A DNA stretch of 64,000 nt. It comes from Melieria omissa (Eukaryota; Arthropoda; Insecta; Diptera; Ulidiidae). The DNA lies in assembly GCA_963971225.1 (NCBI GenBank), contig OZ020269.1:44971264-45035263 (forward strand). Direction: 5' to 3'. This document shows, piece after piece, positions 8,557 to 56,264 of the stretch. Position numbers and translations under genes: made by a program. Positions within the stretch are counted from its first letter, which is position 1. Every line of letters begins with the position of its first letter. Below the pieces are notes generated by a model. The model was not told where the DNA came from and did not search any database. It worked only from the letters and a program-made list of their open reading frames with translations.

Positions 8557-11500
8557 TTAGACTTGTTCGTCCCGAACAAGTACCGAGGCCCCGCCGGAGT
8601 AAGACGCCAGGCGCTCCAAATGGACTACTTTCAGCCTGGCGTTTCCGCTGCAGCAGCGTTGAACCCTGTACACCACGTCATTAATCCTGGTCACGACCTT
8701 GTACGGTCCTTCCCATGACGTTTGAAGCTTTGGAGACAAACCTTTCCTCCGCTGCGGGTTGTAAAGCATTACCAGATCGCCTTCTTGGAACTCCGCTGTG
8801 TTAGCTCGTAGATCATATCTGGCTTTCATCTTATCGCTGACCAGTTGGATACGGTCCCTTATAAACTGGTGGATTTCTTCCAGCTCCGATCGCTTATTAA
8901 CTGCGTAATCCGTCTTAGCGCCTTCCGTCGTGCTGACCACTCCGAACTTCAAGTCAGCAGGCAACCTCAGCTCCGTGCCGAACACTGCTCGTGCTGGAGT
9001 GAGTGATGTCGTATCGTGCGGGGCTGACCTATATGCCATCAAGAACAGCGGAATATGCGTGTCCCAATCCTTTTGATTCCTGCCTACTACTTTCCGCAGA
9101 TATTCCTCCAGTGTTCGATTGAATCGTTCCACCATGCCGTCGGACTGGGGATGCAAAGGACAGGTGCGAGTTTTCCTTATTCCTAGTAGCTCACACACTT
9201 CCTTTAATACCAGAGACTCGAAATTCCTGCCTTGATCCGAGTGCAACTTCATTGGAACTCCAAATCTGGCCACCCAGTTGTTTACCAGCATTTCCGCGAC
9301 CGTGGCGGCCTCCTGGTTAGGAACAGGATACACTTCGGGCCATTTGCTGAAATAGTCCATTACCACCAGCACATATTTGTTGCCCTGAGTGCTGAGTGGG
9401 AATGGCCCGGCGACGTCCATGGCAATTCGCTCAAAGGGCGCTCCCATGTTGTACTGCTGCATGCGGCCCCGAGATCTTCTTGTTGCCCCTTTCGCAGCCG
9501 AACATCGATCACAGCTCTTAATCCAATCGGCGACAGACTCCTGGCATCCTACCCAGTAGAATCGCCTCTTTATTTTGGCGACAGTTTTTGTAATGCCTAG
9601 GTGCCCTCCGCTAGAGTCGTTATGGTATGCCTCGATCACCTCGTTGATCCTGCATTTCGGGACTAAAATTAGAGAATTGCTGGTCCGGCCATCCTCACTC
9701 TCCCACTCGCGGTATAGGCAACCATCAGACAGCCGCAGACTTTGCCACTGCGCCCAGTAAGCCTTCGCGATCGGGCTCTCACCGGCCATCTCCTGCCAGT
9801 CTGGACGTGCGCCCTGCTCCTTGCCTTCAATGATTTTTTTAAGATCCGTATCCTCGCGCTGGTCCTTTTGTATCCTCTCCGCAGACCACTCTTCCTCTGG
9901 CATAACGCTGACCAATCGTACGTCCACTATCTGCTCTTTGCTTTCGGCTCGCGAACAATGCCTGCATTCGGTTTTGCACGGACGGCGTGACAAGGCATCG
10001 GCATTTCCATGGCTGCTACCCTTGCGATGCTCTACCGTGTAGTCGTAGCTCTGCAGCCGTTCGATCCACCGCGCCAATTGGCCTTCCGGATCTTTAAAGT
10101 TCAGTAGCCATTTCGATGCCGCATGATCTGTACGCAGGCGAAACTTTTGCCCATACAGGTATTTGTGGAAGTGTTTCACGCATTCCAATACTGCGAGCAA
10201 CTCCCTTCGTGTCACACAGTAGTTGCGTTCGGGCTTTGACAAGATTTTGCTGTAGTAGGCTATCACTTGTTCTTGGCCATCTATTATCTGTGATAGCACA
10301 CCACCAATACTATGCCCACTTGCATCTGTATCCAGCACAAACATCTCTCCAGGCACGGGGAAGGCCAGAATTGGAGCAGTGCACAATTTTTCCTTCAACC
10401 GTGCAAAAGCCTGCTCCTGTTCTTCACCCCACGCGAAGGCTTGATTCTTTTTCGTCAGTTTGTGCAAGCTGCCAGCTATGTTCGCAAATCCTGGAACGAA
10501 TCTTCGGTAGTATGTGCACAAGCCCAGGAAACTGCGGAGTTCGTGTAGATTGCGTGGTCGGGGCCACTCCCTCACTGCCGTGATCTTGCCTTCGTCCGTA
10601 TGTACTCCGCGAGCGGAAACCGTGTGGCCCAGATACTTGACCTCTTTTTGGAACAACGAGCACTTCTTTGGGTTGAGTTTAAGGCCGGCGTTTTGTATAC
10701 GCCCAAATACCTCCTTCAGCTTTTCCAGGTGGTCGTCGAAGCTTTTGCCCATCACGATTATGTCGTCGAGGTATACCAGACACGTCCGCCAATGCAGCCC
10801 TTTCAGCACACGCTCCATTAGCCGCTCGAATGTTGCTGGTGCGTTGCAGAGTCCAAACGGCATGACGGTGAACTGCCACAAACCGTCGCCAACACTAAAA
10901 GCTGTTTTCTCCTCGTCCTGGTCTGCAAGCTCCACCTGCCAATAGCCGCTGCGTAAGTCGAGTGTGGAAAACCACTGTGTGCCTGACATTGTGTCCAGGG
11001 TGTCATCGATCCGAGGTAGTGGATAGCTGTCCTTCTTGGTCACGTCATTGAGCTTTCGATAGTCGACACAAAATCGGGTACTGCCATCCTTTTTCTTGAC
11101 TAGCACGACCGGCGAGCACCAAGGACCTGACGAAGGCTCTATGACCTTTTCTTTATGCATGTTTTCAATCAAATTTGTGACCTCTTCCCTCTTGGCCAGA
11201 GGAACTCGTCCTGGCGGTTGGCGGATTGGTTTTGCACTTCCGGTATCGATGTTGTGTTTCACTATGGCTGTTCTTCCGCCCGCCTCCGTTGCAAATATGG
11301 ACCCACAGTGCTGCAGGAGTGACCGTGCCTTCTGTTTCTGCTCGGCTGTCAATTCGCTGCTCCACTGGTTCTGCGGTATGGCGTCCATGTTAGAACTGCT
11401 TTTCTTACTTCCTCCGGGTGGACTGCTTTCGCAATTGACAACTGCTTCAGCCTCTCTACACTCGCCAATGACCGCATCTTTTTCGATATATCTGGGTGTG

Positions 11501-11685
11501 TTCAATGGGTTGAGTATCCTTACTGGTATTTTGCCATTTTTGGGTTCCACTAACGTCCGATTATTATGTTGTCGTATCCTTGTTTTGGCGCTTCTACAAC
11601 CCACAGCCGGCTTGTCCCATCGTGCTCGTCCACTTTCGCCCACACGATCGCCTCGGAATTCGCTGGTATCTTCTGATGTTGACAC
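8557..11685 (-). CDS. pol of family X: reverse transcriptase, RNase H, integrase
   Basis: The open frame is 1042 residues. Reverse transcriptase spans about residues 150-350 with VVLVKKKDGS, RIDDTLD and the catalytic YLDD (LVYLDDIIVMG). RNase H follows with DTDASGHSIGG and RTDHAASKWL. Integrase has the HHCC finger (GGHLGITK..CDRCSAAK), a D,D,E core (AMDVAGPFPL, HSDQGRNFES, GMVERFNRT) and a C-terminal GPY motif (SWEGPYKVV). The stop is 11 bp from the 3' LTR, so there is no room for env. The protease lies in another frame that overlaps by 136 nt. The natural join falls near 11550, where one base seems missing, so this copy may be defective despite its youth. Confidence 0.92.
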   Translation of the reverse strand: MSTSEDTSEFRGDRVGESGRARWDKPAVGCRSAKTRIRQHNNRTLVEPKNGKIPVRILNPLNTPRYIEKDAVIGECREAEAVVNCESSPPGGSKKSSSNMDAIPQNQWSSELTAEQKQKARSLLQHCGSIFATEAGGRTAIVKHNIDTGSAKPIRQPPGRVPLAKREEVTNLIENMHKEKVIEPSSGPWCSPVVLVKKKDGSTRFCVDYRKLNDVTKKDSYPLPRIDDTLDTMSGTQWFSTLDLRSGYWQVELADQDEEKTAFSVGDGLWQFTVMPFGLCNAPATFERLMERVLKGLHWRTCLVYLDDIIVMGKSFDDHLEKLKEVFGRIQNAGLKLNPKKCSLFQKEVKYLGHTVSARGVHTDEGKITAVREWPRPRNLHELRSFLGLCTYYRRFVPGFANIAGSLHKLTKKNQAFAWGEEQEQAFARLKEKLCTAPILAFPVPGEMFVLDTDASGHSIGGVLSQIIDGQEQVIAYYSKILSKPERNYCVTRRELLAVLECVKHFHKYLYGQKFRLRTDHAASKWLLNFKDPEGQLARWIERLQSYDYTVEHRKGSSHGNADALSRRPCKTECRHCSRAESKEQIVDVRLVSVMPEEEWSAERIQKDQREDTDLKKIIEGKEQGARPDWQEMAGESPIAKAYWAQWQSLRLSDGCLYREWESEDGRTSNSLILVPKCRINEVIEAYHNDSSGGHLGITKTVAKIKRRFYWVGCQESVADWIKSCDRCSAAKGATRRSRGRMQQYNMGAPFERIAMDVAGPFPLSTQGNKYVLVVMDYFSKWPEVYPVPNQEAATVAEMLVNNWVARFGVPMKLHSDQGRNFESLVLKEVCELLGIRKTRTCPLHPQSDGMVERFNRTLEEYLRKVVGRNQKDWDTHIPLFLMAYRSAPHDTTSLTPARAVFGTELRLPADLKFGVVSTTEGAKTDYAVNKRSELEEIHQFIRDRIQLVSDKMKARYDLRANTAEFQEGDLVMLYNPQRRKGLSPKLQTSWEGPYKVVTRINDVVYRVQRCCSGNARLKVVHLERLASYSGGASVLVRDEQV

Positions 11686-51439: not shown

Positions 51440-51841
51440 GTTGAGGTCTTGTGTTGAGGACTTCAAATTAGGTTTTAGGTTCAGGTTTAGGTTTTATTAT
51501 TAATAGTCAAATAGATATAGATTCATACTGACTTGCAATTACAATAAGTTAAACAAAACACTTAAAATTAAATCAAAATTAATATATAATGAATTCAATA
51601 AACAAAAATGACTAAGGTGCCGAAAGAATCACATCATCGAAGCTGCCTTTTGAAGAATGATCTGGTAAGAGACAGATCCAAGAGTATTGAATTGGATAAC
51701 TTATTGAAGTCACGCATAGCCCGTGTTGTAGGTGCTGCAAGGAGGTAGTTAGTTTTGACAGTTTTTACATAAAAAGGCGGAGAGTAACGCAGTGATTTAC
51801 AGGACACATTGAAATGGATTTTCTCTACACCTTTTCAAGTT

Positions 51842-52165
51842 CGATTTCAGAAAGCGTAAAAGCAATTTCAGAAAGCGTAAATTCAATTTCAGAAAGCGTA
51901 AATTCAATTTCAGAAACAAAAATTCAATTTCAGAAAGCGTAAATTCAATTTCAGAAAGCGTAAATTCAATTTCGGAAAACGTAAATTCAATTTCAGAAAC
52001 ATAAATTCAATTTCAGAAAGCGTAAATTCAATTTCAGAAAGCGGAAATTCAATTTCAGAAATCGTAAATTCAATTTCAGAAAGCGTAAATTCAATTTCGG
52101 AAAGCGTAAATTCAATTTCGGAAAACGTAAATTCAATTTCAGAAAACGTAAATTCAATTTCAGAG
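51842..52165. repeat. left array of 21-bp repeats
   Basis: About sixteen copies of ATTTCAGAAAGCGTAAATTCA, with small variants (GAAAACG, GAAACATAAA, GCGGAAA), head to tail with no spacers. The inverse array lies at 53745-54070. They probably serve as transposase-binding sites; this is inference. Confidence 0.85.
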
Positions 52166-52303
52166 CAAATGTTGAATTTATTTTGGTTGCATTTACACAG
52201 ATTTGAAAAAGTAACATTTTTTATAATACGTTATAAAAGAAATATCTATATCTATCTATATCTATCTATATCTAAATATCTGCTGGCCAAGAAAAATAAA
52301 TGT

Positions 52304-53578
52304 TTATGTTCCCACAAGCATGTCCTTCTGCGCAAGAGCATCCCCATGAAACGTCGAACTGTGCTGGATTGCTCTTGCGCAGTCGCCTCCAGTTATAGTG
52401 CACTTTGCCTCGTCCACTATTTTTTCTAAATACTGGAGCCGCTGCTCCATAATGGCCGGTGATTGCACTTGTGGTACAGTCATATGCGACTTTACGTACG
52501 CCTTTACTTTCGACCAAATATTTTCGATCGGATTTAGCATCGGCGAATATGGACCCAAACGTAGCACTTCTGCAAGACCACCTGAGTGTGCTGCTACGGC
52601 TGTTTCGATCGTGGTATGGCATGGTGCATTGTCGCACACAATCACAAGGTCGTTAACGTTATTGCCATTTTCCTGCCATTTGGTAATTAAACCTTGTACC
52701 CATTCGGAGCAAGCTGCAGATGTAAATGAGCCCCTGCGACGCTCTAAAAGCAGCACACCTCCTGTGGTGATTGCACCAATCAAATGTACGTTTGGGCCCC
52801 TAGACGCGGGAAGTTGTTGGATAGCGCGTTGACCAACTTTGGAACGGCCTCGTGTAAAACGGCAAAATAAATTAAAATTTGTTTCGTCTATCCAAACGAT
52901 CTGCTTCCCGGCTTGTATCAACTGATTGAGTTGTGTGACGTAGCCAGCTCGCTTTAGTTTGTTTGCGCAGCTATTCATTGTCACCGGCTCCGTGTGGACT
53001 TTTTTCAGTGAATACAATTCACCATTTAGGTAGTTTCCTATCGTTGTTGTGGTGACGTCAACGTTAAAGCGTGATAGGATTCGTGACTTCATCGCTGTAA
53101 GGGTCATAGAGCAATCCTCTTCCAACCAAGTTATTATCTCTGCCACCTGGTCCGCTCCAAGCTTCCGGCTTTTTCCACCACCCTTACGAAGCATTTCGGC
53201 GCGCCCTGACGAAACCCAGCTATGTGCCGTCTTGTAGCAAATACCCAGAGAAGTCGCCATCGCTACCCAATCTTCGCCCCGGGCTGCTACCGACACGACT
53301 CGGTCCCTATCTTGGGCCGAATTCGCTTTGTACTGCTTTCTTACGCATTCTTCATTGCCTGCAAAGAGAAAAAAATTTTGAATACTTACAGGATATTTAG
53401 CAAAAAACGAATACTTACCAGTAATTTCACAACGGCAAATTGGGCAAGTTTGATTTGCATTTGCTAACAGCGGCTCAATGCACTCCATGTGAAATAAGTG
53501 CCCACAATTTAGAATTTTGCACACGCGACGCGTTCGCATATCCAAGAGGCATATTGCACAATTGTCTTTGTACTCCAT
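52304..53578 (-). CDS. RING-H2 finger fused to a DD35E transposase
   Basis: The 424-residue frame is intact. Residues 7-48 form a RING-H2 finger with Cys7, Cys10, Cys25, His27, His30, Cys33, Cys45 and Cys48. A helix-turn-helix lies around residues 103-126 (DWVAMATSLGICYKTAHSW). The RNase H-like core has Asp231 (WIDETNFNLF), Asp316 (VIVCDNAPCH) and Glu352 (PMLNPIENIW), with 35 residues between the last two. That places the catalytic part in the IS630/Tc1/mariner superfamily. RING fingers usually recruit E2 ubiquitin enzymes; a role here is inference. Residues 54-73 are encoded by a possible 60-nt intron. The start at 53578 is the first ATG and precedes the finger directly. Confidence 0.88.
   Translation of the reverse strand: MEYKDNCAICLLDMRTRRVCKILNCGHLFHMECIEPLLANANQTCPICRCEITGKYSFFAKYPVSIQNFFLFAGNEECVRKQYKANSAQDRDRVVSVAARGEDWVAMATSLGICYKTAHSWVSSGRAEMLRKGGGKSRKLGADQVAEIITWLEEDCSMTLTAMKSRILSRFNVDVTTTTIGNYLNGELYSLKKVHTEPVTMNSCANKLKRAGYVTQLNQLIQAGKQIVWIDETNFNLFCRFTRGRSKVGQRAIQQLPASRGPNVHLIGAITTGGVLLLERRRGSFTSAACSEWVQGLITKWQENGNNVNDLVIVCDNAPCHTTIETAVAAHSGGLAEVLRLGPYSPMLNPIENIWSKVKAYVKSHMTVPQVQSPAIMEQRLQYLEKIVDEAKCTITGGDCARAIQHSSTFHGDALAQKDMLVGT
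53359..53418 (-). other. possible 60-nt in-frame intron in the RING-transposase
   Basis: On the minus strand the donor reads ACTG|GTAAGTATTC and the acceptor TTTTTTCTCTTTGCAG|GCAATG. The interval is 60 nt, a multiple of three, and lacks stops, so spliced and unspliced forms both keep frame. It lies between the finger and the transposase. The encoded stretch is hydrophobic and unlike its surroundings, which favours a real intron. Confidence 0.65.
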
Positions 53579-53744
53579 TGGATTTCAGTTATACGCACAC
53601 AACAGTTGTACAGTTGAAATGAAATGAACTATTTTGTTTTATTTTACAATTACAAATATGTAGAAATGGCACACTTTGTTCCGTACGTAGATAAAAAATT
53701 TGGCAAAGTGCACTTTTCCAAAAACATTTTTTATACATTAAAGG

Positions 53745-54070
53745 TAGTTTCTGAAATTGAATTTACGTTTTCCGAAATTGAATTTACGCTTTCTGAAATT
53801 GAATTTACGCTTTCTGAAATTGAATTTACGCTTTCTGAAATTGAATTTGTGTTTCTGAAATTGAATTTACGCTTTCCGAAATTGAATTTACGCTTTCTGA
53901 AATGAATTTATGTTTCTGAAATTGAATTTACGCTTTCTGAAATTGAATTTATGTTTCTGAAATTGAATTTACGTTTTCCGAAATTGAATTTACGCTTTCT
54001 GAAATTGAATTTACGCTTTCTGAAATTGAATTTACGCTTTCTGAAATTGAATTTACGCTTTCTGAAATCG
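53745..54070. repeat. right array of 21-bp repeats
   Basis: About sixteen copies of TGAATTTACGCTTTCTGAAAT, the inverse of the left array, with TCCGAAAT and TATGTTTCTG variants. Together with the left array it makes an inverted pair of ~325 bp each. Confidence 0.85.
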
Positions 54071-55644
54071 AACTTGAAAAGGTGTAGAAGACAAGGGCAA
54101 TCAATGACATTGGAGACGAGATCAAAGACGAACATTACAAATTGGACGAATCTCCTAACCTCTAGAGACTGCAAATTAATCAACATTAGACAAGCACTAT
54201 ATGAAGGAAGTGGTTCAGAGAAATGCAGCGGCTGTAGGGCAAAACGAAGAAACCTACGCTGAATTTTTTCAAGCTGAGAAGAGTGTAAAGTAAACAGTGA
54301 GTTCCAGGTTACAGAGGCATATTCGAGTTTAGAACGAACGAGAGACGTGAACAGAAGCTTACGCGTATAAGGGTCCTTGAATTCTTGTCCATACCGCCGG
54401 ATAAACGATAAAAGTGAGTATGCTTTTGGAATAATGTAATTCACATTGCACGAATGTAAATTGAGTGTCAAAAATCACTACAAGGTCACGAAATTCGTCT
54501 GCAGTAGTTAGAAATCATGTAAAAGGAGGGGACAGGACTATGAGACTACAGAAACTAACATGAAATCTGTGACACCAGATTGCAAGATTACACTGTGCGA
54601 CAGCTTTTTCTAACCCGGAACCGACCAAGACTAATCGATAGTACTCTTATAGAGTAACAAAACCCTAGCTGGGTTTTGCAAAGTTAGTTGCCTTTTACAA
54701 GTTACAGCCGTGTAAAGTTTGTGTGTATTCGGGTTTTTTCAACCAGTTTTTTCTTTATAAGTCTTAAGATATTCAAAATTTTATATTACTGTCTTCAGCA
54801 AACTTCCTGCTAATTCTTAGATGAGCAAATTTTCTTAACACTGTGTAACAAAATTATTACACTTTTTTTGATTGTAATAAAAAAACCTGTTTTTTATTCT
54901 ATTAATATTAATGCAAAAACGCATTTGTATTGCCAAAAATAAAAAAAATATGCTAAGCCCTCTAATGTCACAAAGACATGTTTTTTTGCACAATAAAGTG
55001 AAGAAATGTTCACATCTAAATTTGAAATTTTATTGTTCACATATTTCAGTCTGTTTGAAAAGTTTTGTGCATCCAGTTTAAGCGTAGTTTTCTCCTAAAA
55101 ATCCTTCGTTACGTTTGCTGACTACACCAACAAATTTCCGCCAGTGGCTTCAGGAGATTTCTTTCCTTTGTATCTGAGCAAATTAATTCAAACGGAAGCG
55201 CGGTCTGATGATATCGCTCGCCTTGTTCGTCTGATTCTGGTGGTAATTGTTGGCTGAAGTAAAGCAGATGATGATGCAAGTAATGAATCTTTAGCAACAT
55301 GTGAACGCCTATATTTGCAAATGCATCCATAATTTTTTTTTTGAATCGAACAAACGCGCAGGGGATGGATGACCACTATTAATGCAATGCATTGGGTTGG
55401 TTCAGAAAAGATATAAAGGTTAGGAAATAGGATTTTGAGAGAAGTGGTTTTGGTGTAAATAATGCGGAGATCAGACGGAGTGAAATATTTTTTGCACCGC
55501 TTTAGGAAGCCGAGGCACTTGGCTGCTTCTTTCGACACGCCAAAAATATGACCGTTCCAACGAAGATCGTTCTTAATGGACATGCCCAGAACATCAAGAG
55601 CTGCCGATTCCGCAATACTCACACCACCCATAACCAGGGATGTA

Positions 55645-56264
55645 TGGGGTGTTTTTTTTAGAGGTTTGTTTTTCGAATAGAGATAAAACTGGCATTTTGT
55701 GGTCAAATCTGGCAACTCTAATGTGATTTATGTTCAGTTTGGTTTGCCATTTCATCATGAACAGGTCGACAAAAGAACAACGCTTGCAAATCGTGCAAAT
55801 TTATTTCGAAAATAATGGTTCAGTTCGCGAAGTTTACCGCAAGCTCCGTCCATTTTATGGTCGACATAATCGTCCATCAGAGCAAAATCGGTCCATCCAT
55901 CGGTTAACCATGGGTCGTTTTCGCACTACGTTTACTCTATGTGATAATACGCATCCGCAGAGACGTCGAACAGTGCGCACCGAAGAAACAATTGCCGCTG
56001 TAGAGCAAAATGTTGAAGAGGACCCGAATGAATCCATTCGCCACCGTGCACAGCAATTGGAGCTTTGTCCATCAACTTTAAAAATTGGACCTGTAGAATT
56101 GGCTTTATTCGAGCCAGCCGCGGCGGCCACATGCCCGAAATCATATTTAAACATTAATGGCATAAAATTATCCTTCCAATAAAGTCAAATTGATGGACAT
56201 TAAAACGATTTTCTTGTGTTTTATTTCAATTCGAAGTTCTATACCTCTAAAAAAAAACACCCTA
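55645..56264 (+). mobile_element. mariner deletion derivative, 620 bp
   Basis: Ends TGGGGTGTTTTTTTTAGAGG and CCTCTAAAAAAAAACACCCTA are flanked by TA (55643-55644, 56265-56266). It keeps the transposase N-terminus and the last few codons (GGHMPEIIF in another frame near 56130) with the middle deleted. Same family as 47530-48190. Confidence 0.78.
55757..56182 (+). CDS. truncated mariner transposase N-terminus, open
   Basis: From MNRSTKEQRLQIVQIYFEN at 55757 the frame encodes helix-turn-helix-type sequence (VREVYRKLRPFYG, IRHRAQQLELCPST) for about 115 residues. It then crosses the internal deletion and ends in an unrelated frame at 56182. No catalytic residues remain. It could encode a DNA-binding-only product; this is inference. 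Confidence 0.6.
   Translation: MNRSTKEQRLQIVQIYFENNGSVREVYRKLRPFYGRHNRPSEQNRSIHRLTMGRFRTTFTLCDNTHPQRRRTVRTEETIAAVEQNVEEDPNESIRHRAQQLELCPSTLKIGPVELALFEPAAAATCPKSYLNINGIKLSFQ

Follow-up and report, generated by a model that had tools for sequence, protein, structure and literature searches.

A RING-H2 finger on an upstream exon of a complete IS630-like transposon in Melieria omissa

The element, its ends, and its predicted two-exon gene

The stretch of Melieria omissa DNA analyzed here (64,000 nucleotides, hereafter the window) contains a complete transposon whose minus strand carries a 424-aa open reading frame (ORF; 52304–53578) encoding a RING-H2 finger, a helix-turn-helix (HTH) region, and a DDE catalytic domain (Table 1). 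The plus-strand translation of the same interval is full of stops.

Table 1. Features of the transposon and its insertion site, in window coordinates
Feature	Coordinates	Strand	Details
Complete transposon	51828..54084		2,257 bp; host site, a non-LTR retrotransposon; termini match (CACCTTTTCAAG / CTTGAAAAGGTG), empty site in frame
TA target site duplication, left	51826..51827		
TA target site duplication, right	54085..54086		
Left tandem array, inside terminal inverted repeat	51840..52164		21-bp unit, 15.6 copies
Right tandem array, inverted	53748..54072		15.7 copies; 21-bp unit common to the left array
Exon 1 (RING exon)	53419..53578	-	Residues 1–53 and first base of the next codon
RING-H2 finger, residues 5–49	53432..53566	-	Pfam zf-RING_2; block mean pLDDT 91–95
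Intron, predicted	53359..53418	-	GT-AG, 60 nt, frame-preserving, stop-free; GTAAGTATT...TTTTCTCTTTGCAG
Exon 2 (transposase proper)	52304..53358	-	HTH and DDE domain
HTH region, approximately residues 88–184	53027..53317	-	HTH_32 weak match, 1.9e-4, below curated cut-off; helices in model
DDE_3 catalytic domain, residues 226–368	52475..52903	-	D231, D316, E352
Non-LTR retrotransposon reading frame, part, split by insertion	54087..54471, continuing at 51628–51825	-	

The ends of the element are long inverted repeats, each filled with about 15 21-bp tandem repeats, and the terminal sequence CACCTTTTCAAG... occurs at 51828 and 54084 as an inverted pair. When the flanks are joined through a single TA, they yield a continuous reading frame that restores the interrupted retrotransposon ORF, so that the TA-flanked termini of the original prediction are borne out. 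We take this ORF, from its sequence, to be the end of a non-LTR retrotransposon reverse transcriptase ORF; a Pfam search with its 54087..54471 part gave no match. The element is an intact insect-type transposon that has probably been active recently, and its 21-bp repeats are putative sites at which the HTH region would bind many times over.

Finger and transposase had been described as one intact ORF. The 424-aa frame does exist, but it comprises two exons separated by the predicted 60-nt GT-AG intron; with no stop and a length that is a multiple of three, the intron gives the appearance of a single ORF. Residues 54–73 are the product of this intron: Residues 57–70 have pLDDT < 50 in the predicted structure, and the 20 intron-encoded columns are empty in 41/41 other full-RING rows of alignment A1. 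The genome also contains a second RING–transposase family, whose GT-AG intron (61 or 62 nt) lies at the identical site and in the identical phase, and across both families an intron occupies the shared site in all 11 distinct places read. In the second family, as read from the sequence, the frame of unspliced RNA meets a stop just inside the intron, and splicing is therefore needed to join finger and transposase. Two database proteins (P0011 and P0038) resemble, in their protein sequence, read-through of an intron before exon 2.

The transposase core matches the DDE_3 model (3.7e-20, 72.7 bits; cut-off 28.6), the NCBIfam IS630 model, and the Metnase/Mos1 fold. The DD35E triad D231/D316/E352 lies where the original prediction put it and is kept in 65/65 rows of A1. 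The IS630 model (NF033545, 299 positions, built for bacterial and archaeal annotation) scores 113.1 bits against a cut-off of 100 and matches the window protein from residue 91 onward only. Together with DDE_3, the catalytic triad and the TA duplication, the latter present also in a second copy, place the element in the IS630-Tc1-mariner group. Within the broader label Tc1/mariner/IS630, the element seems closer to IS630 than to classical Tc1/mariner: NF033545 is above its cut-off, and the HTH_Tnp_Tc3_2 model matches 7/65 rows of A1, with the window protein not among the matches listed. DDE spacing among relatives, readable in 95/121 proteins, ranges from 30 to 36. Traveler is likewise listed as DD35E (PMC7093834); membership there would be judged by phylogenetic position and not by spacing alone. 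Rows of the alignment VIA-align cover mostly residues 195–422.

Copies and relatives with and without the finger

A genome search for the window protein gave at least 102 protein matches, and 99 of 682 candidates were scored. One further copy, on contig C16, is intact and near-identical: It has its own TA duplication and flanks unlike those in the window, and over 1,272 nt (intron included) the only differences from the window ORF are two amino acid replacements, synonymous changes being absent. The family has moved recently. Among 30 loci of the genome search, exon 1 is detectable in 12 distinct places (window included): All eight zinc ligands are kept in 10, and in the remaining two the finger is broken; three of the 12 form one cluster and are not independent. 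The second family (L063, L064, and L065) has 57% amino acid identity to the first and contains stops in the copies seen. It has termini in common with the window element, TACACCTTTTCAA, and its own 21-bp repeat array with the unit TCAAAATGAGAATACGTAAAT.

Thirteen places on contigs C1, C3, and C4 share an internal deletion that removes the finger, the HTH, and the first catalytic Asp, with breakpoints agreeing within a few bases in 10 of the 13 (query 594–596 to 1496–1506). Their longer piece is 78–90% identical to the window element. These derivatives form a non-autonomous subfamily, the pattern expected of older copies moved in trans. A more distant locus (L061, a 404-aa ORF with 33% identity) and the broken L062 contained no RING pattern in six frames of the fetched DNA. 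On C1 at 76.30–76.66 Mb (L003–L005, L008, L018, and L019), three clustered copies are split by other DNA, about 4 kb in two and 11 kb in one, and resemble one interrupted copy duplicated together with its surroundings.

We compared 121 proteins, namely the window protein and 120 listed of 283 matches to it. Fragments included, 45 carry all eight ligands, 10 have a partial finger, and 66 have none. Hosts of finger-bearing relatives include, among the matches listed, Rhagoletis pomonella and Zophobas morio; the listed products of Lucilia cuprina, Callosobruchus (fragments), and the fluke Dicrocoelium are finger-less. A search of viral contigs found no relative. A midpoint-rooted tree was built from 111 of the 121 rows with the finger's columns left out; the 10 rows dropped as too short include the full-RING proteins P0062, P0104, and P0109. 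In four of the rows used (three full-RING, one partial) the finger stayed attached because the cutting pattern missed it, but the finger columns carry no weight because columns filled in <30% of rows were omitted.

In the tree, a branch supported at 99% (SH-aLRT) has all finger-bearing rows to one side of it. This side holds 69 rows (42 full, 9 partial, 18 finger-less), and all 42 rows of the other side are finger-less. Many of the 18 may be partial gene models, since three (P0048, P0060, and P0067) keep the last Cys pair and some of the rest begin at the exon-2 boundary or close to it; real loss within the RING side is possible, for example in P0069, which adjoins the window protein in the tree. 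Four partial rows (P0033, P0039, P0065, and P0072) have lost a zinc ligand. On the finger-less side, no row of the 42 carries more than three Cys upstream. For 32 of them a start position was measurable: The median lies 14 residues before the HTH anchor, and 23/32 begin 20 residues or fewer before it. In the window element, exon 2 opens some 15 residues ahead of this anchor. Most of the measurable rows on the finger-less side thus start approximately where exon 2 does, and we infer that an older transposase acquired the finger exon at its upstream end.

These distributions bear on two accounts of where the finger came from. It could be a local accident, either a host finger captured in the window copy only or an artifact of intron read-through, and the window ORF does run through an intron; yet 10 of the 12 exon-1 places, in two families, keep all eight ligands (with the cluster of three among the 12), and relatives in other insects carry the finger as well, making an accident of this kind extremely improbable. 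Capture of a host gene, or capture in one copy, is ruled out by the finger-bearing relatives, the tree, the second family, and the shared intron site. Alternatively, the common ancestor of the whole group may already have had the finger, which the finger-less side then lost, as opposed to a single gain. Because the tree is midpoint-rooted it accommodates such an old finger, but the IS630 model reaches the window protein only past the finger and 23 of the 32 measurable starts on the finger-less side lie close to the exon-2 boundary, and we regard ancestry followed by loss as quite unlikely. The original prediction had assigned the finger to the element as a family trait, a claim that would have failed had other copies lacked it or had a host gene been captured here only; the second family and the relatives in R. 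pomonella and Z. morio speak for the claim. On these sequences, the RING–transposase fusion is a trait of a clade of related transposons and not a one-off accident.

Constraint on the finger and its possible activity

The finger is no chance pattern: It matches Pfam zf-RING_2 at 6.2e-11 (42.8 bits; cut-off 27.3), and its best sequence match among solved structures is RING finger protein 38 (RNF38; E 8.5e-9). Both the sequence and the alignment columns place the eight RING-H2 ligands (C7, C10, C25, H27, H30, C33, C45, and C48) as originally predicted, and all eight cross-brace ligands of a RING-type E3 ligase are present in the window protein. The finger also carries I9, P46, and R49, corresponding to E2-contact positions and the linchpin Arg, residues that have roles in RING E3 ligases. 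The 45 full-RING rows were picked by the eight-ligand pattern, so that conservation of the ligands within them is circular, whereas the flanking residues lie outside that criterion. Among these rows, the linchpin Arg directly follows the last Cys in 44/45, I, V, or L is the second residue within the first Cys pair in 45/45, and Pro lies within the last Cys pair in 43/45.

The finger is under constraint. Between family 1 and family 2, the RING exon has pN 0.33 and pS 0.90–0.96 in each of three comparisons, pS values so near 1 being saturated and giving no exact dN/dS. Mean identity is 0.47 for the RING, 0.49 for the HTH region, and 0.63 for the catalytic domain, placing the RING no higher than the HTH region and below the catalytic domain, which weighs against constraint. 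A search for a donor gene among RING-only proteins returned no candidate with enough shared words. Residue 14 of the finger is Met in 42/42 full rows of A1, and several partial rows start at or close to this Met.

Conservation of the linchpin Arg and the E2-contact positions makes E3 activity likelier, and on sequence grounds the finger is likely a working ligase. It may instead be a structural or protein-contact module without ligase activity, serving dimerization, targeting, or nuclear retention. A Trp between the Cys pairs of RNF38 matters for E2 binding, and the alignment gives Leu at this contact in the window finger. Cysteine-rich domains of the piggyBac group offer a precedent, being cross-brace zinc domains in transposases that the consulted portion of the source does not describe as ligases (PMC8086355). 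Conservation extending past the zinc ligands to the linchpin Arg and the E2-contact positions argues the other way, and we consider a purely structural finger doubtful. A ligase directed against a host restraint protein, such as a silencing or repair factor, and not against the transposase or its chromatin, would fit the finger's best solved-structure matches, E3 ligases with RNF38 among them. Apart from its HTH and DDE domains, however, the protein shows no substrate-binding part, DNA-bound targets in cis would be simpler, and such a role appears unlikely.

Known RING-bearing elements and a proposed mechanism

RING domains joined to DDE recombinases or transposases are already known from RAG1 and Chapaev, of the Transib/Chapaev lineage, and the RAG1 RING has ubiquitin ligase activity according to the part of the report consulted (PMC4411706). 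The window element differs from both in superfamily, in carrying a RING-H2 at the extreme N-terminus on its own exon, and in its TA target. By its DDE_3 and IS630 matches and Metnase/Mos1 fold, its core appears not to be of Transib or Chapaev type, and the domain search saw no Chapa domain in the window protein. IS630-like members of the IS630-Tc1-mariner group share with it DDE_3, DD35E, the TA duplication, and a score above the IS630 cut-off; the window element adds the RING exon, the intron, and the arrays of about 15 21-bp repeats per end.

Other mobile elements also carry a RING. In excerpts of the respective papers, the Mutator-like Ghost element has one in a separate ORF, its ends not having been found, and a C3HC4 ring finger is tabulated there for a single Phytophthora MULE (PMC6446971); Isis-like/Osvaldo and Pao LTR elements, which are retrotransposons, had been reported earlier to carry a RING finger (PMC3630058). 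Among the matches listed in the open-licence full-text literature, we found no account of an IS630/Tc1/mariner transposase fused with a RING, although an entry in Repbase only is possible. The whole word RING is absent from the main texts of PMC7325037 and PMC8533490, and the parts consulted of PMC12062965, PMC10799480, and PMC12910113 contain no such case. As far as searched, the IS630-Tc1-mariner case is unreported.

We favor, as fairly probable, an intact IS630-like element encoding a RING E3, with the finger gained once as an upstream exon and convergent with RAG1/Chapaev. Under this proposal, a single gain would have spliced the finger exon onto an older finger-less transposase. The HTH region of the spliced 404-aa protein would bind the 21-bp end repeats and the DDE domain would cut DNA, while the finger would recruit a host E2 and place ubiquitin on nearby proteins. 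The transposase would be the first target, and ubiquitin would keep its level in check or remove it from cut ends; chromatin at the element ends is an alternative target. More tentatively, a working RING ligase and a DDE transposase may have fused independently of RAG1/Chapaev for use in the transposition complex, setting transposase lifetime or changing chromatin; in the second family, unspliced RNA might then yield the finger by itself, as a peptide about 55 residues long, making splicing a possible switch between free finger and ligase-transposase.

RAG1 is evidence that joining a RING ligase with a transposase core can be of consequence, although it represents a single domesticated lineage. 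If another superfamily offers a second case, independent and recently mobile, it would show that the fusion benefits the transposons themselves, and the proposed history, if true, would be a transposon case of a regulatory domain gained as a spliced exon. As a small system, the element would also let single-residue changes test what a RING does in DNA transposition.

The layout of the ends has a parallel in Tetris, a foldback element of Drosophila virilis that has tandem repeats of about 220 bp inside its terminal inverted repeats and is apparently non-autonomous, as given in the section consulted (PMC4079207). Repeats within terminal inverted repeats are common to both; those of the window element are 21 bp, and it encodes its own transposase. 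Elsewhere in the window, the minus strand holds a long uninterrupted LTR retrotransposon pol ORF (8557–11685; reverse transcriptase, RNase H, and integrase), and near the element the plus strand holds an ORF with a DUF4817 helix-turn-helix (55730–56182).
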